A stretch of DNA of 64,000 nt from Stanieria cyanosphaera PCC 7437 (lineage in GTDB: Bacteria; Cyanobacteriota; Cyanobacteriia; Cyanobacteriales; Xenococcaceae): contig NC_019748.1 in NCBI RefSeq assembly GCF_000317575.1, forward strand, positions 248,001 to 312,000. Direction: 5' to 3'. This document shows positions 35,184 through 41,088 of the stretch, one piece after another. How positions within the stretch are numbered: the stretch's first letter is position 1; each line of letters starts with the position of its first letter. The translations under genes and the position numbers were made by a program. Below the pieces are notes generated by a model, which made no database searches, was not told the DNA's origin, and saw only the letters and a program-made list of their open reading frames with translations.

Positions 35184-35866
35184 ATCATCAATCATCAACC
35201 ATCAACCAAGTTCAACAATTAATTGCAGCCGTTAATCAAGCTGACTCAGCAGATAGTTTGTTAAGCGCAGTAGAAAATCTGGTCGAAGTGCGATCGCCTG
35301 AAGCGATTCCTACTTTAGTAGAAGTCTTAAGCTATAATAACCCAGGTGCAGCGGTAGCTGCGGTTGAAGGTTTAATTGCCCTAGGTGAACCTGTAGTACC
35401 TTATTTAATTAACAATCTCGATGAGTATAATTATGGAGCAAGAGCTTGGGCTACAAGAGTTTTTGCCGGAATCGGCGAGCCTTCTACTCTAGATATCTTG
35501 TTAAAAGCAGCAGTTGGCGATTTTTCTCAAAGTGTTCGTCGTGCTGCTGCCAGAGGATTAGGAATCATTCGTTGGTCAAAATTAGCTCCTGAGCCAAGAA
35601 TGTCTGCACAACAAGAAGTATTGTCAACTTTGCTGTTAGTTGTACAAGATGGAGAATGGGTAGTTCGTTATGCTGCCGTAGTCGGTTTACAAGCTCTAGC
35701 TGAAGCTGTCAGGGAAACTCAACCTCAATTGATCGAGAAGATTACCGCAAAATTTCAGGAATTAATTACTACCGAACCAGAACCAGTAATTCGCGCTCGC
35801 GCTCAATTAGCTCAGATTCGCATAAGCACTCTAGCGTCAACTACCCATCGCTTCCCTAACGAGTAA
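35180..35866 (+). CDS. cpcF: Phycocyanobilin lyase beta subunit, 3' end replaced by an insertion
   Basis: The 228-residue HEAT-repeat partner of CpcE contains IPTLVEVLSYNNPGAAVAAVEG and SVRRAAARGLGIIRWSKLAPEP. The first 218 codons are native. From 35836 the frame enters the right end of an IS605-type element, which supplies the last residues (STTHRFPNE) and the stop. Joining 35835 to the far flank at 37215 would instead give a short ending (SKLRPNS, then stop), so only the extreme C-terminus was exchanged. The protein is probably still functional because all recognisable HEAT repeats are intact. Confidence 0.9.
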   Translation: MNHQSSTINQVQQLIAAVNQADSADSLLSAVENLVEVRSPEAIPTLVEVLSYNNPGAAVAAVEGLIALGEPVVPYLINNLDEYNYGARAWATRVFAGIGEPSTLDILLKAAVGDFSQSVRRAAARGLGIIRWSKLAPEPRMSAQQEVLSTLLLVVQDGEWVVRYAAVVGLQALAEAVRETQPQLIEKITAKFQELITTEPEPVIRARAQLAQIRISTLASTTHRFPNE

Positions 35867-37214
35867 GCGTGGGCTTGTATCTGAACTCCACCTCAATTCA
35901 GAATATCTATCTAGACGTTCTGCTTTGGCTTCAACATTCGATACATCTGGGCATACTGACAAAATGCCCGTTCTCTCCCAATCTTGTCGAAAAAGAAGCG
36001 TTCTTAAGGCAATATTTCTGGATGCTGCTAAATCTGCATGAAGTTCAAAATTGCAAGCTTCACAATGGAAAATTAAGCCTTTATTTGGTCTATTATTGTC
36101 ACTCACATGACCACATTTTGGACACATTTTACTAGTATAATTAGCATCAACTTTAATAGCTAAACTTTTTACAAATACCGCTTTATAATCTAAGAAAAAA
36201 TGTAATTCGGCAAATGACCATTTGGCTTGTTTTCTCTGAGCTTTTTTTGGTTTTTTAGATGCTTTTTTACCTTTTCTCTTTGGAGAAGTTCTTTCTCTTA
36301 TATGTGTCAAATCCTCTAGCCCAAATAGAGTATTCGGCTTGATTATTTGCTTGCTAATTTTGTGATTGGTATCAGCAGTAAACCGTCTTTCTCGTCCAGA
36401 TAGTGCTACTAATCTACGTGTGGCTGAACGAGTGCCTTTCTGCTGTAAAGTTTTTCTAGCTCTTTGATATTTATTTGCTTTGTGTATTATCTCCTTACCA
36501 GAAAAGAATTGTGATTTATTGTTTAAATCAGTAGTAACTGCCAAAAATCTTCTACCAACATCAACACCAACAGTTTGTTTTAAATCAGTAGGCTTTAATT
36601 CAGGTAGTTCAATTTGCAAACTAACTAATAAATAATAAGTTTTAGTTGGCTTTGAGTAATAGATTTTAGCTCCTTTAATACGTGAACCTTTTTTGATTAG
36701 TTCTAGATGCTTGTTGTACCCAGAATAGTTAACAATAATTCGTCCTTTAAGTGTAATCAGACTTACTTGTTGATTATTCTTAAAAGTAAAATCTCGTAAA
36801 TAATTTAAGTTACAAGTTCTAGAAACATATTTAGGTGCTTGATCGAGTCCTTTAAATTTCTTTTTAGTTTTTCCTTTTTTAATAGCTTCTTGATTTTGTT
36901 TAAGCTTAGTTAATAATCCCTTATAAGTTGCTCCAACCTGTCTAGGGACATTACAAGCCATTTGGGAAGGAAGAGAAAACTTAGAACGTAAATCCAGATA
37001 GACTAATTTTTGAATTTTAGTTCCATTAGCTGATTTTCCATTCTCAAAATTGCGTTGAGAAGTATAGTTCAAAGCATCACGATAAGCAAGAGAAACTTCA
37101 CGAAGCAAAAGTGTTTGCTCGGTATTGGTATGAAGTTTCAGCTTGGCAGTGATAATTTGGTGCATACTTTAGTTTTCACGACAATTTCAAATCCAAAAAT
37201 ATCGTGAATAATGG
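35836..37214 (-). mobile_element. IS200/IS605-superfamily element with tnpB only
   Basis: The element is oriented on the minus strand. The right end finishes with TTGAC (complement at 35836-35840), after a hairpin formed by the CCCACGCTT / GAAGCGATGGG arms (about 35845-35870); another stem, GAATT-GAGGTG-GAGTTC, lies just inside. At the left end TTGAA (complement at 37215-37219) fits the expected target motif, followed by a subterminal hairpin TTCACGATAT / ATTGTCGTGAA. TTGAT-like left and TTGAC right motifs are known for ISDra2. No tnpA is present, so it would need help to move. Boundaries are inferred from these motifs and from reconstruction of cpcF. Confidence 0.75.
35837..37165 (-). CDS. 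tnpB: RNA-guided nuclease TnpB of IS605 type
   Basis: The 442-residue protein has a complete RuvC site: Asp202 in TVGVDVGRRFL, Glu284 in LFGLEDLTHIR and Asp378 in ELHADLAASRNI. Its zinc ribbon is intact (CPKC at 348-351, CEAC at 368-371). TnpB cuts DNA next to a short target motif, guided by an RNA made from the 3' end of its own gene and the flanking DNA. The guide would therefore start at 35835 and read into the cpcF 3' end. The last 50 or so residues after the third Asp overlap the guide-RNA region. Lysine-rich segments at 95-106 and 296-315 fit nucleic-acid binding. Confidence 0.92.
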   Translation of the reverse strand: MHQIITAKLKLHTNTEQTLLLREVSLAYRDALNYTSQRNFENGKSANGTKIQKLVYLDLRSKFSLPSQMACNVPRQVGATYKGLLTKLKQNQEAIKKGKTKKKFKGLDQAPKYVSRTCNLNYLRDFTFKNNQQVSLITLKGRIIVNYSGYNKHLELIKKGSRIKGAKIYYSKPTKTYYLLVSLQIELPELKPTDLKQTVGVDVGRRFLAVTTDLNNKSQFFSGKEIIHKANKYQRARKTLQQKGTRSATRRLVALSGRERRFTADTNHKISKQIIKPNTLFGLEDLTHIRERTSPKRKGKKASKKPKKAQRKQAKWSFAELHFFLDYKAVFVKSLAIKVDANYTSKMCPKCGHVSDNNRPNKGLIFHCEACNFELHADLAASRNIALRTLLFRQDWERTGILSVCPDVSNVEAKAERLDRYSELRWSSDTSPRLLVREAMGS

Positions 37215-37262: not shown

Positions 37263-38553
37263 TTACAAGGGTAGGTTTTTTACAATCTACGAAGAATCAG
37301 AAAAAGCCAAATCGCTGAAGTGATTGAAAGAGAAAGGAAGCAAACGACCAAGAGCGACAGACTGACCATTGAGCAGTCGCGCTACTATAGTTAACAAACC
37401 ATTAAGAAAACAAGAGATTTGACGAGTAGGAGTGGGTTCAAAAGCTAAAGAGCGATCGCCAATTAATTCATCCTTAGAGGAAATTTCCTGTTCTCCACCC
37501 AGAGTAACCATCCACAGCATAGCCACTGCCATTGCTAACCAATGACGTTCGGCTCTCTCGGCTTTCAAAAGACGAGTTTTATGCCATTGCCAACCATCAC
37601 TTTTGACATCTCTATAGGAACATTCAATCCAAGAGCGAAATCCATACCAACCAATATCAGCATCAGTTGATTTTAAATCCGTGAGAATTAACCAAGGGTC
37701 AGTATAACCCTCATCCCATCGAGCTAGAAGAGTACAATCAATCTGATTGCTTTTAAAGCAAGTCACTCGTCCAGACCAACTCTCGCCAGCATCAGTTACA
37801 ACTGTTGATAGAGAATACCATAAAGATGAATTTTGTCGTCGATATTGACCTTGGTGATTAATTCGTAAAAACGGATGCCAACCTAATTTCACAATCTGTT
37901 CGTATAGCCAAGGAGCATACAATCCTCTATCAGCACTAACGATTACCTTCCAATCTGTCGGCACAACATTGTTGAGAGATTGAAACAGTTCTTTCCAGTA
38001 CGGTTTCCAACTACCTTTGTCTGTCCCTTTAACCACTTTCCAAGCTATAGGAATGGCACTACCTCGATATAAAACATTGATTGAAAGAACTACAAAATTT
38101 TGACCGATACTGGTGGCATCTAATGCCATTGGTAACTCTTGATTACTTTGAGGTAGTAAATCGACAATCCATTTTAGTAATGAGGCAAAACAGCCTTTTA
38201 CTTCCAGAGATACTCTTTTATTCCCTGTTTTGGCTTTGGCTGTTTCTTCTTTGTACCATTCTTTCAATCTTTGGCGTACCGTATTGTCTTTCTCCTGATT
38301 GATTTTGGCAATTAACGTGGAAACTTTAGTCAGACTGCTTGATTGTGTCATTACCATTCCAAAACTCCAGGTTGCTAATCCAGAAACTTGAGGTAGACTC
38401 AGGTCTGGAAATTTTTGACTGACAATCTGTTTCCAATCTTTGAGATGTTGATTTAATTTCATCTCATGATAACTATACTATTTACTTCTCTTAATACTTT
38501 TACCTTATTTCTGAGCTTTTACTCCTCCCTTTGTAAAAAACCTACCCTTGTAA
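37263..38553 (-). mobile_element. Complete IS4-family insertion sequence
   Basis: A 1,291-bp element bounded by perfect 23-bp terminal inverted repeats (37263-37285 and 38531-38553; ends TTACAAGGGTAGG). Exact 13-bp target duplications GCTGTCCGACCTC lie outside both ends (37250-37262 and 38554-38566). The transposase gene is intact, and identical repeats and duplications point to a recent insertion. It has split a GC-rich palindromic array. Confidence 0.96.
37287..38462 (-). CDS. IS4-family DDE transposase
   Basis: The 391-residue transposase has the DDE triad in context: Asp115 (ALDATSIGQ), Asp178 (VSADRGLYAPWLYE) and Glu280 (RSWIECSYRDVKSDGWQW), with the Y-(2)-R-(3)-E-(6)-K-like motif of IS4 proteins represented by the last block. 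It starts 69 bp inside the right inverted repeat and ends just before the left one, as expected for an intact element. There is no frameshift or stop. Confidence 0.95.
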   Translation of the reverse strand: MKLNQHLKDWKQIVSQKFPDLSLPQVSGLATWSFGMVMTQSSSLTKVSTLIAKINQEKDNTVRQRLKEWYKEETAKAKTGNKRVSLEVKGCFASLLKWIVDLLPQSNQELPMALDATSIGQNFVVLSINVLYRGSAIPIAWKVVKGTDKGSWKPYWKELFQSLNNVVPTDWKVIVSADRGLYAPWLYEQIVKLGWHPFLRINHQGQYRRQNSSLWYSLSTVVTDAGESWSGRVTCFKSNQIDCTLLARWDEGYTDPWLILTDLKSTDADIGWYGFRSWIECSYRDVKSDGWQWHKTRLLKAERAERHWLAMAVAMLWMVTLGGEQEISSKDELIGDRSLAFEPTPTRQISCFLNGLLTIVARLLNGQSVALGRLLPFSFNHFSDLAFSDSS

Positions 38554-38716
38554 GCTGTCCGACCTCCGGTCGACGGGGCTTACAGGGACTCGAATTGAAT
38601 TCGAGTCACAGCCCCTCCCCTTCGGGAAGGCCGAAGTGAATTCGGCAGTTCATACGCCCCGTCCGCATCGCCTGACTTCGTCTAGGCGTGGGACTCCTTA
38701 CGAAAGAAAGTTGAAG
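38554..38716. repeat. GC-rich palindromic array, split by the IS4 insertion
   Basis: A chain of inverted repeats: GACCTCCGGTC, GACTCGAATT / AATTCGAGTC (38587-38607), CCTTCGGGAAGG, CCGAAGTGAATTCGG and CGCC / GGCG around 38670. GACGGGGC at 38572-38579 pairs with GCCCCGTC at 38656-38663. ACAGCCCCTC (38608-38617) pairs with GAGGGGCTGT at 37246-37255 on the far side of the IS4 element, so the structure was continuous before that insertion. It may be a non-autonomous palindromic element or the scaffold of an IS605-like RNA. Confidence 0.65.
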
Positions 38717-39367
38717 CTAATTACTTTTTTTTCTGGCAATTACGGCATAAAAAGGATCGCCACCGACTAACCCCAACATCCTTAACATTGTAGGAACAGG
38801 AGATTGACGGACAATGACTTCTGGAGAAGAAAAACCAGACACCGACTGAAAGTATTGTTTGACTAATTCTACACGACTGCTTTCTGTGCCATCTCGCCAA
38901 GCTGCGATCGCTTTTTGATAAAACATTCGATTAGAAAAACTGACGATGGTAATACCATTTGGTTTGAGAATACGGTAAATTTCGCTAAAAATGGCTTCGG
39001 GATATTGTAAATACTGTACCGAAACCGTAATTAGTACGGCATCAAAATCGGCATCAGCTAGGAGGAATTGAGGATTTTGGTTTAAATTTTGAATAAAATA
39101 ATGATTTAGTTGGGGATTCTTGGCTAATTCTTCTTCATTCATTCCATGACCTTCTACATGGGCAAATTCCATCTCTTCAGGAAGGTGAGATACCCAACTA
39201 CTCATTAGATCGAGGATCCGAGTTTGAGGTTGAAGTTGTTCGCGATAAAGATTAGTTAATTGATCGATAAATCCTTCGTCAACATGAGTCACAAAACGAG
39301 GAAAGGCATAAAAATCGCGATCGCTAGTTTCATCTAATTTAGTTCTTTGTTCTGGTCGCAGCAGCAT
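38717..39367 (-). CDS. Class I SAM-dependent methyltransferase, unknown substrate
   Basis: The 216-residue protein resembles methyltransferase domain type 11: the motif I region is weak (TRILDLMSSWVSHLPE, with no GxGxG), but ADFDAVLITVSVQYLQYPEAI and EIYRILKPNGITIVSFSNRMF are characteristic motifs. The substrate is unknown. The atypical motif I is shared by a group of cyanobacterial and plant-plastid proteins, from memory. It is a single gene on the minus strand, immediately beside the palindromic array. The ATG at 39367 is the likely start. Confidence 0.75.
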   Translation of the reverse strand: MLLRPEQRTKLDETSDRDFYAFPRFVTHVDEGFIDQLTNLYREQLQPQTRILDLMSSWVSHLPEEMEFAHVEGHGMNEEELAKNPQLNHYFIQNLNQNPQFLLADADFDAVLITVSVQYLQYPEAIFSEIYRILKPNGITIVSFSNRMFYQKAIAAWRDGTESSRVELVKQYFQSVSGFSSPEVIVRQSPVPTMLRMLGLVGGDPFYAVIARKKSN

Positions 39368-39574
39368 ATCATCTTAGTAGTTATAGTTTCTCTAGAAAAT
39401 ATATTACAAAATATTAAGTATTCAATGCTGGTGAGTTATCCAGAAGAATAACTATTCAAAAAGGCAGAAGTTGTAGAGATGCGAAGTTTTACGTCTGTGC
39501 AAAAGCTTTATTCTGAATGCAAGCGAATAGATTCAAATTTAGAGTTTTTGATTTTAAAAATGCGAGTGGGAATT

Positions 39575-40025
39575 CCCTTATGCCTTTAGGCTAGGGGATG
39601 AAAACGAGCGCAACAACTTTACGGTTTAGACACAAAATTTTCATATAAAACGGGTTTTTGTCGTTATATAATAAACTTGGTCGTAAGGCATGAGCCTGAA
39701 TTGAACCTTCGTATTGGGATTCGCCCAACGTGATTGACACGAACGAATACGCCTTAGTTGCGTGGTGAACAGTGCAAACTCAGGGAAACGTAATGAAATT
39801 GAATAAACTCGATTCATAGTACCCAAGGACTTTGGGGGAAAGAAATTGCCTGTCAAACAAAGGACACGTCGTCTGAGGTTTCCTCAGACGCTCGTGATGT
39901 CCGCGTTGTACTGTCGGGGAGTAAGTCAAGAGGCTGCTCTAGATAAGTGGCTTAGGGCAGGAAAGCCCAATCGTGAGTTTGGGAAGCTCGTATGGCTTTA
40001 GCCTACGAGAGTAGTCACGTTGATT
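39575..40025 (+). ncRNA. Candidate orphan omega-RNA / HEARO-like structured element
   Basis: A gene-free stretch with dense folding on the plus strand. A left part near 39590-39605 (GCC-TTTA-GGC followed by GGGATGAAAACGAG) resembles the subterminal hairpin plus GATGAAAA of the IS605 element at 56690. A TATAAT box (about 39668) precedes nested stems: TAAGGC / GCCTTA enclosing CGTATT / AATACG and TTGGG-ATTCG-CCCAA; a long hairpin with GTCTGAGG-TTT-CCTCAGAC; CTGCTCTA / TAGGGCAG; CCCAA / TTGGG; and the terminal CTCGTATGGC-TTTA-GCCTACGAG followed by AGTAGTCAC. This layout fits guide-RNA scaffolds of IscB/TnpB elements without their nuclease gene. The class name is inferred from memory of such RNAs. 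Confidence 0.55.
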
Positions 40026-40062
40026 GTGACAACAGACTAATATTAGCTTAAAATCTATTTTG

Positions 40063-41088
40063 TTAGATGACAAAAGTTTCTATGCGATCGCAATTAGGTA
40101 AAGATGCTTTAATACTGAAAAATTCTCCTTCTTTGCCACTAAAACGAAATTCAATTGTTTCAGTCTGATCAGCTTGCACTTGCATAATCGGAATTTCCTG
40201 TTCGTTCAATACTAACGCTTCTAGTCCTTGAGGAAGATAAGTATGCTGATTGACAGGATAAATTTTTACAGAAATATCTTTTTCTTCGTTTGAAAGAGAA
40301 CTAATATTTAAAATTAAAGCAAGAGAAAGTTTTTGCACTCCGTTATTGCTATTGGGCAATGGACTCAACTCTAAAATTTTAAAACGACTAACTCCCGATA
40401 AAAGAGGTTCTTTTGGTGGTTGGAGTTGATCGATACTTCTAAATGCCATAACTTTTGTTGGTATTAATAACTCTTCCAACGGTTGCCAACCAGTTTCCAA
40501 TCTTCCTTCTAACCATTTACCCAAATTAATTGGTTGATTTGTTTCAGTTTTAGGCTTCGCTACTATAGTTGAAGAAGATAATTTAGATAGCGTTCCTGAA
40601 TGATTAACTCGTCTAAGTTGGCTCAAATGGTATGGTAGACAATCAATAGATTTTAATTGATTGAGAGTTATTCTATTATTTTGAACTTCAGTTACAAATC
40701 CTAGTAAAGTAGCCTGTCTAAGAGATTCGTGAAATTGTATGATAATGTAACCGCTTCTGTCGGAACTAACTTCAGCCGGAATTTCTACCCATTGCTGATT
40801 TGGTAAGACAAAACGGCACTCTATCTTACCATAATTAACTAAATCTAAATCAGCTATATTCATTAAACTTTGGAGCAAAGGATTCCAACTATCGCTGGTT
40901 TCTAAACTAGTTTCCCAGCCCAAATAATTTAAATAGTTGTGTACGGCATAAACCGCCAAAGTATTTAAATAAACTTGCTTGGTTTTTTGAGAATTTGATT
41001 GATAACTACTAAACTGCTTTGCATAAGTATGAGCAGTTACAGACAAAGAAATTTGAATTTTCAACGAATCTGTCATCATCTTTAACAT
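40063..41088 (-). CDS. DUF1822-family protein
   Basis: The 341-residue soluble protein shows the DUF1822 pattern: AVHNYLNYLGWETSLE near residue 50, WVEIPAEVSSDRSGYIIIQF, LLGFV, then a middle WLEGRLETGWQPLEELL and a C-terminal half rich in beta strands. The family is confined to cyanobacteria and has no known function. It usually follows a sigma-like gene, as here (20-bp gap to the upstream regulator gene on the same strand), so the pair probably forms one functional unit, perhaps an effector or partner of that regulator. Confidence 0.85.
   Translation of the reverse strand: MLKMMTDSLKIQISLSVTAHTYAKQFSSYQSNSQKTKQVYLNTLAVYAVHNYLNYLGWETSLETSDSWNPLLQSLMNIADLDLVNYGKIECRFVLPNQQWVEIPAEVSSDRSGYIIIQFHESLRQATLLGFVTEVQNNRITLNQLKSIDCLPYHLSQLRRVNHSGTLSKLSSSTIVAKPKTETNQPINLGKWLEGRLETGWQPLEELLIPTKVMAFRSIDQLQPPKEPLLSGVSRFKILELSPLPNSNNGVQKLSLALILNISSLSNEEKDISVKIYPVNQHTYLPQGLEALVLNEQEIPIMQVQADQTETIEFRFSGKEGEFFSIKASLPNCDRIETFVI

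Follow-up and report, generated by a model that had tools for sequence, protein, structure and literature searches.

HEARO RNAs have been reported with or without a nuclease ORF, and there are earlier reports of orphan omega-RNAs for IscB and, perhaps, for certain TnpB elements. The guide of a HEARO RNA lies at its 5' side; a guide that is read downstream fits TnpB, not HEARO. For the TnpB of ISDra2, the guide RNA covers the tnpB 3' end, the right end of the element and then approximately 16 nt of flanking DNA, and its target motif is the motif of insertion, as described in the cited sections of PMC8612924. Transposase-free elements derived from IS605 are also already known as PATEs, according to the cited sections of PMC3119063. 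In our searches of the open-licence PMC literature, including sections of PMC10711439 and PMC12558985, we found no prior description of protein-free elements that combine a TnpB-type guide RNA with 5' modules.

Here, we describe such an element in a window of 64,000 nucleotides (the whole stretch of DNA analysed) from Stanieria cyanosphaera PCC 7437. A first-pass annotation had read the locus as an orphan omega-RNA of HEARO-like type. That description holds insofar as this is an omega-RNA-type guide RNA of a mobile element, with its guide on the 3' side and no nuclease gene, but the family is that of the TnpB reRNA rather than HEARO/IscB.

Anatomy of a protein-free element

The element (Table 1) is situated between a methyltransferase-like gene (38717-39367, minus strand) and a DUF1822 gene (40063-41088, minus strand). 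The ORF list holds no tnpA or tnpB ORF in 39558-40018, the ORFs of at least 50 aa inside the element being two short ones at 39641-39856 (minus strand, 71 aa) and 39846-40001 (plus strand, 51 aa); hence, it can only be a non-autonomous derivative of IS200/IS605. In keeping with that family, it possesses subterminal hairpins and lies 3' of a short motif with no target duplication. Like PATEs, as defined in the cited sections of PMC3119063, it is transposase-free and has near-terminal palindromes related to those of IS605. Both end hairpins share the same geometry; the one at the left end is probably a subterminal hairpin of the TnpA type, and the one at the right end shows compensated changes in relatives when inspected by eye and is followed directly by AGTAGTCAC at 40010-40018.

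Table 1. Features of the element and R1 matches elsewhere in the same genome
Feature	Position	Strand	Remark
Whole protein-free element	39558..40018 (461 bp)	+	left end to right end
Target site / transposon-adjacent motif TTTAA	39553..39557	+	immediately outside the left end
Left-end imperfect hairpin, TTTA loop, one unpaired base	39574..39598	+	z -0.78 for the left end alone
TATAAT, -10-like box	39667..39672	+
5' RNA module, type A	39664..39821	+	R2 match, 117 bits; window itself among training rows
Guide-RNA scaffold core, reRNA-type (predicted)	39817..39991	+	R1 match, 119.7 bits; window among training rows
tnpB 3' coding-end remnant GLWGKEIACQ (relatives GLWGKEIGCQ)	39827..39856	+
Variable palindromic insert, in core loop	39859..39903	+
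Right-end hairpin CTCGTA / TACGAG	39987..40009 (arms 39987-39992 / 40004-40009)	+	z -2.7
Right-end terminus GTCAC	40014..40018	+
Putative 16-nt guide from flanking DNA	40019..40034	+	position by analogy with ISDra2 reRNA (cited sections of PMC8612924)
5'-truncated core	C1:837340		R1 match
Broken tnpB element	C1:3614010		R1 match, 92 bits; best-fitting tnpB-element core of the genome
Intact tnpB element	C1:1296852		R1 match, 61.7 bits; divergent reRNA
Second complete ORF-less element, L202	C1:2778217		R1 match, 48.1 bits; type C module, TTTAG-like site

The RNA fold of 39566-40025 is more stable than those of all 100 dinucleotide shuffles (z -3.1), and the stems, right-end hairpin, AGTAGTCAC and TATAAT box that had been noted from the letters are all present, with compensatory changes in homologues. 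Boundaries and details required revision: the left end is at 39558 rather than 39575, and the guide, placed earlier from 40013, would instead begin at 40019, after GTCAC. The 20-mer that starts there occurs only once in the genome when up to three mismatches are allowed. A folded 5' part does exist, but its first helix begins at around 39677, and the interval assigned to the module overlaps the promoter and the first bases of the core. The hairpin described as having eight pairs is a perfect one of nine (39870-39878 / 39882-39890), but it belongs to the variable insert, which is missing from 19 of the 24 rows of alignment A8. TATAAT is where it was said to be, but a promoter scan of 39440-40100 found neither a -35 box nor a sigma-70-like pair at it, the only such pair being at 40026-40054. 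No terminator-like site was found in the same interval.

The palindromic insert has the form GGAC..GAGGTTTCCTC..GTCC and, by itself, without the core, has matches in many genomes of the family; by eye, similar repeats are nested in loci L053, L078, L127 and L229.

The guide-RNA core and the sequence in front of it

A DNA search with the window element gave matches in at least 22 of 27 genomes of the family, and 40 stretches around chosen matches were fetched. In some of these, a long tnpB frame is present whose last codons (..STQGLWGKEIGCQVGLSGAFCLDKWR..), together with the right end, align with window positions 39817-40018; others have no tnpB frame, as in the window. The core could be aligned with seven loci carrying a long tnpB frame (L064, L080, L082, L083, L085, L086 and L088) and with five more in which tnpB is broken or partial. 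This establishes the homology of the RNA to tnpB ends. Since the core spans the tnpB 3' end together with the right end, as the published TnpB guide RNA does, it is by that definition, and as predicted from sequence, a TnpB-type guide-RNA scaffold (reRNA/omegaRNA) whose guide would start at 40019. The overlap itself is evident both in the seven aligned loci and in the GLWGKEIACQ remnant, and conservation of the scaffold fold is evident from covariation.

Covariation was demonstrated in several alignments. RNAalifold predicted 29 pairs from 23 sequences, 19 of them with compensated changes. For the R1 structure in a 21-row alignment, 17 of 28 pairs have changed on both sides while 97.8% of cells pair, and none of 500 shuffles reaches the covariation score; this structure was derived from the same 21 rows, which favours it, and controls in which it was slid scored 0.03-0.08 vs 0.51. 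Furthermore, compensation is retained where the sequence is free of the constraint of a tnpB reading frame: among 24 ORF-less copies alone, 17 of 27 core pairs are compensated (covariation 0.500 vs 0.173, reached by 0/500 shuffles). The shuffle controls for covariation ignore how closely the rows are related. The window core departs from R1 by one marked non-standard pair. Homologous copies with compensatory changes, the lack of which was one of two conditions named by the first-pass annotation as speaking against its reading, do exist (17/28 and 17/27 pairs).

What lies in front of the core was assessed through an exact-pattern scan of named genomes, which yielded 66 stretches, 65 labelled cyanobacterial and one Chloroflexaceae. 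R1 matches 65 of the 66 (L153 was missed), in addition to four loci of the Stanieria genome itself. Upstream of the core in these 65 loci we found tnpB in 28, ending 1-12 nt before the core, module A in seven, module B in 12, neither in 18 and both in none (thresholds of 1e-5 for tblastn searches with two TnpBs and 1e-4 for blastn searches with eight module sequences); the loci are not all independent, three being near-identical copies from one genome. Of the 18 loci with neither, 11 have less than 100 nt of sequence ahead of the core; a degenerate copy and fusions of left end and core are among the remaining seven. We have thus shown that, in the loci examined, tnpB and the module are mutually exclusive. 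An exchangeable module at the place where tnpB normally lies is the unusual part of the element.

In the ORF-less copies, the interval from the -10 region to the core is occupied by a folded module, of which there are several types. Type A, the type present in the window, aligns in 16 copies with 25 pairs, nine of which are compensated, seven of these in a single long helix (columns 74-85 with 157-169) that provides most of the evidence. Its covariation score (0.358 vs 0.138) was reached by 0/500 shuffles, while two of five control measures were no better than shuffles, namely double-change pairs (57/500) and pair types (459/500). Type B was aligned from 12 copies, with 14 of 32 pairs compensated, and type C occurs in L078 and in the second complete ORF-less element of the Stanieria genome. 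The modules of the scanned loci have no match to any Rfam family. At the place of TATAAT, a -10-like hexamer TA[TC][ACG]AT was seen by eye in 10 of the 11 rows of alignment A2 and in all 12 of A7; in the closest relatives of the window's module (L189, L191 and L142), it is not clearly recognisable.

Within the order, module A was detected in 17 of 291 genomes and the core in 94 of 291, using stricter filters by which weak matches are lost. The genomes with module A belong to four families (f1, f8, f16 and f18), the match in f18 (G154) being weak. When the loci of module A were fetched, the window included, 24 of 30 had an R1 match at the 3' side of the module, some of them weak. Among those without one, L218 and L226 stop at contig ends, L209 and L223 pass into unrelated sequence, and L219 passes into a different RNA-like end. 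In this last case, at approximately 1490-1830, an RNA similar to module A (47.3 bits) runs into a different 3' RNA whose end also differs (GGGAGTGTCAAT), a hint that guide-RNA families exchange modules.

A resemblance of module A to domain I of a group II intron was also considered; a search with the L067 module lent this no support. Its 11 matches, in seven of the 27 family genomes, include seven loci that are further such elements, fragments, or type-C-like (L127). Plasmids contained no match to the L054 module, nor to the window element.

Mobility of relatives and candidate partners in the same genome

Relatives of the element are mobile, as follows from three near-identical copies in one genome together with a copy that splits a long frame. 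Pleurocapsales cyanobacterium LEGE 06147 contains three copies, 98-99% identical, whose flanks differ right outside the ends, as well as a fourth, truncated copy. At L161, joining the flanks at the element ends restores a frame of 599 codons, antisense to the RNA, that stays open through both 900-nt flanks. Among 30 rows representing 29 distinct ORF-less copies (L175 being the same as L055), 18 allowed the left end to be placed. All 17 left ends for which the fifth letter was printed have TTTAA; the left-end pattern itself required TTTA[AG], and for the right end the first GTCAC was used. In the only other genome of the genus (G001), the flanking genes are syntenic (92% and 85% identical), and there is no copy of the element between them; 20 nt there replace 39436-40062, an interval larger than the element, so that this locus does not display an exact empty site.

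R1 matches five places in the Stanieria genome including the window (Table 1), and two truncated copies (L002 and L003) are present in this genome. The genome has 45 matches to the TnpB zinc domain and 17 to Y1 TnpA, some of the latter fragments. The intact tnpB element encodes a TnpB of 414 aa that exceeds the NF040570 cut-off of 100 with 284.6 bits and has matches among TnpB chains of solved structure, including 8bf8 and 8h1j. This protein retains the motifs GCDVGLK, VEDI and RDHASA, which we take to have the RuvC role. Compared with the cognate-type TnpB of L088, the intact TnpB is 54.6% identical, and a second long frame (L106) is 47.6% identical, among 30 of the 45 TnpB places plus L015. 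A text search for core motifs in 30 TnpB loci found none; this is cruder than R1, which did find a related one.

Recognition of the window RNA by the intact TnpB is not assured, given the TTTAG-type site of its element (by eye) and its divergent reRNA. By eye, L202 and the intact tnpB element have similar left ends (TTTAGC, then ..GAAAGCCCCGCTCC or ..AGAAGCCCCGCTCC), and this likeness of sequence suggests that the intact TnpB is best partnered with L202 and that, at present, the closest TnpB of the window RNA may be lacking.

Elsewhere in the window, 35837-37165 (minus strand) is the frame of a TnpB from a different clade (NF040570, 161 bits, above cut-off), adjoined at 37287-38462 (minus strand) by an IS4-type DDE transposase (PF01609; NF033591 below cut-off). 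A palindrome-rich stretch at 38550-38720 (GACTCGAATTGAATTCGAGTC, GCCGAAGTGAATTCGGC) lies beside the methyltransferase gene, and the left end of L201, the intact tnpB element, has a similar palindrome.

Competing explanations and relation to known systems

Taken together, our findings make it likely that the locus is a non-autonomous IS200/IS605-type element that carries its own guide RNA gene, with the guide read from 40019, and that uses TnpB and TnpA in trans. Transcription would proceed from the TATAAT box through the right end and into the flank. A TnpB encoded at another locus of the cell would bind the core and use approximately 16 nt from 40019 as guide, while a Y1 TnpA acting in trans would recognise the end hairpins and move the element 3' of TTTAA. 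After excision, TnpB could cut the empty site (TTTAA plus flank), and repair from an intact copy would restore the element; cutting of the empty site with such repair is the model proposed for ISDra2 in the cited sections of PMC8612924. The 5' module may serve to produce or protect a stable guide RNA in the absence of a tnpB mRNA from which to process one.

The same anatomy could, with a lower probability that we would call rather unlikely, be that of a decayed deletion remnant of a TnpB element, similar to a PATE or MITE, in which the RNA is no longer in use, the pairs are a legacy of copies that were active until recently and the presence of the 5' module is incidental. In the genome, the tnpB element that fits best is broken, two truncated copies occur, the -10 box is unclear in the nearest relatives of the module, and simple fusions of left end and core without a module do exist (L151, L165 and L182); indeed, the window copy itself might be inert. 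Decay is less easily reconciled, however, with a core that still scores 119.7 bits with one non-standard pair (the window being among the training rows), with compensation that continues among the ORF-less copies themselves, and with a module A that covaries and recurs in four families, weakly in f18.

The two remaining explanations fare far worse. If the module were a self-splicing intron, the element would be removed from RNA as an IStron is, and a structured 5' RNA ahead of a TnpB-type 3' part is indeed the IStron arrangement (PMC4227781); yet no group I or group II Rfam match was obtained around the element (E up to 10), in the loci of 18 relatives (E up to 0.5) or in nine loci (E up to 2). 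Moreover, only one of 17 joined sites gives a frame open across both whole flanks, and it runs antisense to the RNA, where splicing cannot help; the remaining sites give short or ambiguous results, as at L193 (a frame of 208 codons, antisense, with 160 nt on one side). We therefore regard this origin as very improbable. More improbable still is a HEARO, that is, an IscB omega-RNA without its gene, even though the element is protein-free, mobile, structured and cyanobacterial: this reading is refuted by the homology of the core to tnpB ends. At gathering score, Rfam matches nothing in the whole window, and around the element, with E up to 10, there are only sub-threshold matches to unrelated families. 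The covariance-model search with HEARO proposed in the first-pass annotation gave no match in the window or in the Stanieria genome, where a count of zero is by itself no evidence of absence given that 14 control genomes also have none; the same library does detect a HEARO at L053:1735-2028 (84.9 bits). Nor is an iscB linked to the element among the four neighbouring window proteins, which Pfam assigns to TnpB, DDE transposase, methyltransferase and DUF1822. The HEARO of L053 follows an ORF-less TnpB-type element at a distance of 18 nt, which places two kinds of guide-RNA element in tandem.

Beyond the preferred reading of a mobile element with its own guide RNA gene, it is tempting to speculate that cyanobacteria harbor protein-free transposons consisting of guide RNA only, in which tnpB has been replaced by exchangeable 5' RNA domains (A, B and C) and the guide RNA has become an independent gene that uses, or even controls, TnpB in trans. 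We advance this tentatively, as a possibility of somewhat less than even weight. If the element does act as proposed, TnpB guide RNAs have become mobile genes in their own right, a change that resembles the one by which transposon guides gave way to the separate RNA genes of CRISPR; the TnpB family is held ancestral to Cas12. The 5' modules would then be undescribed RNA domains standing in for a nuclease gene. Natural copies also offer ready pairs of orphan RNA and intact TnpB with which guidance in trans may be studied.

Several known systems share parts of this arrangement. The window RNA resembles HEARO (RF02033) as an orphan, structured and mobile RNA, but has no match to the Rfam model. 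With IStrons (PMC4227781) it has in common a 5' RNA joined to an IS605-type 3' part; in contrast, it lacks a detected group I intron and tnpB, and its insertion sites are unfit for splicing. Haloquadratum PATEs are likewise transposase-free with near-terminal palindromes related to IS605 ends, some having arisen by core deletion (cited sections of PMC3119063). The cited sections of that 2011 account mention no guide RNA, whereas the window element has a covarying scaffold; its module, found in none of the tnpB elements examined, is a feature that sets it apart from PATEs. The ISDra2 TnpB reRNA is alike in comprising the tnpB 3' end and the right end, in extending into approximately 16 nt of flank and in having a target equal to the insertion motif, which is TTGAT there (cited sections of PMC8612924) and TTTAA in the window, where a guide function is proposed by analogy. 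Unlike ISDra2, the window element has no tnpB, and it instead possesses a -10 box and an extra folded 5' module of approximately 145 nt.
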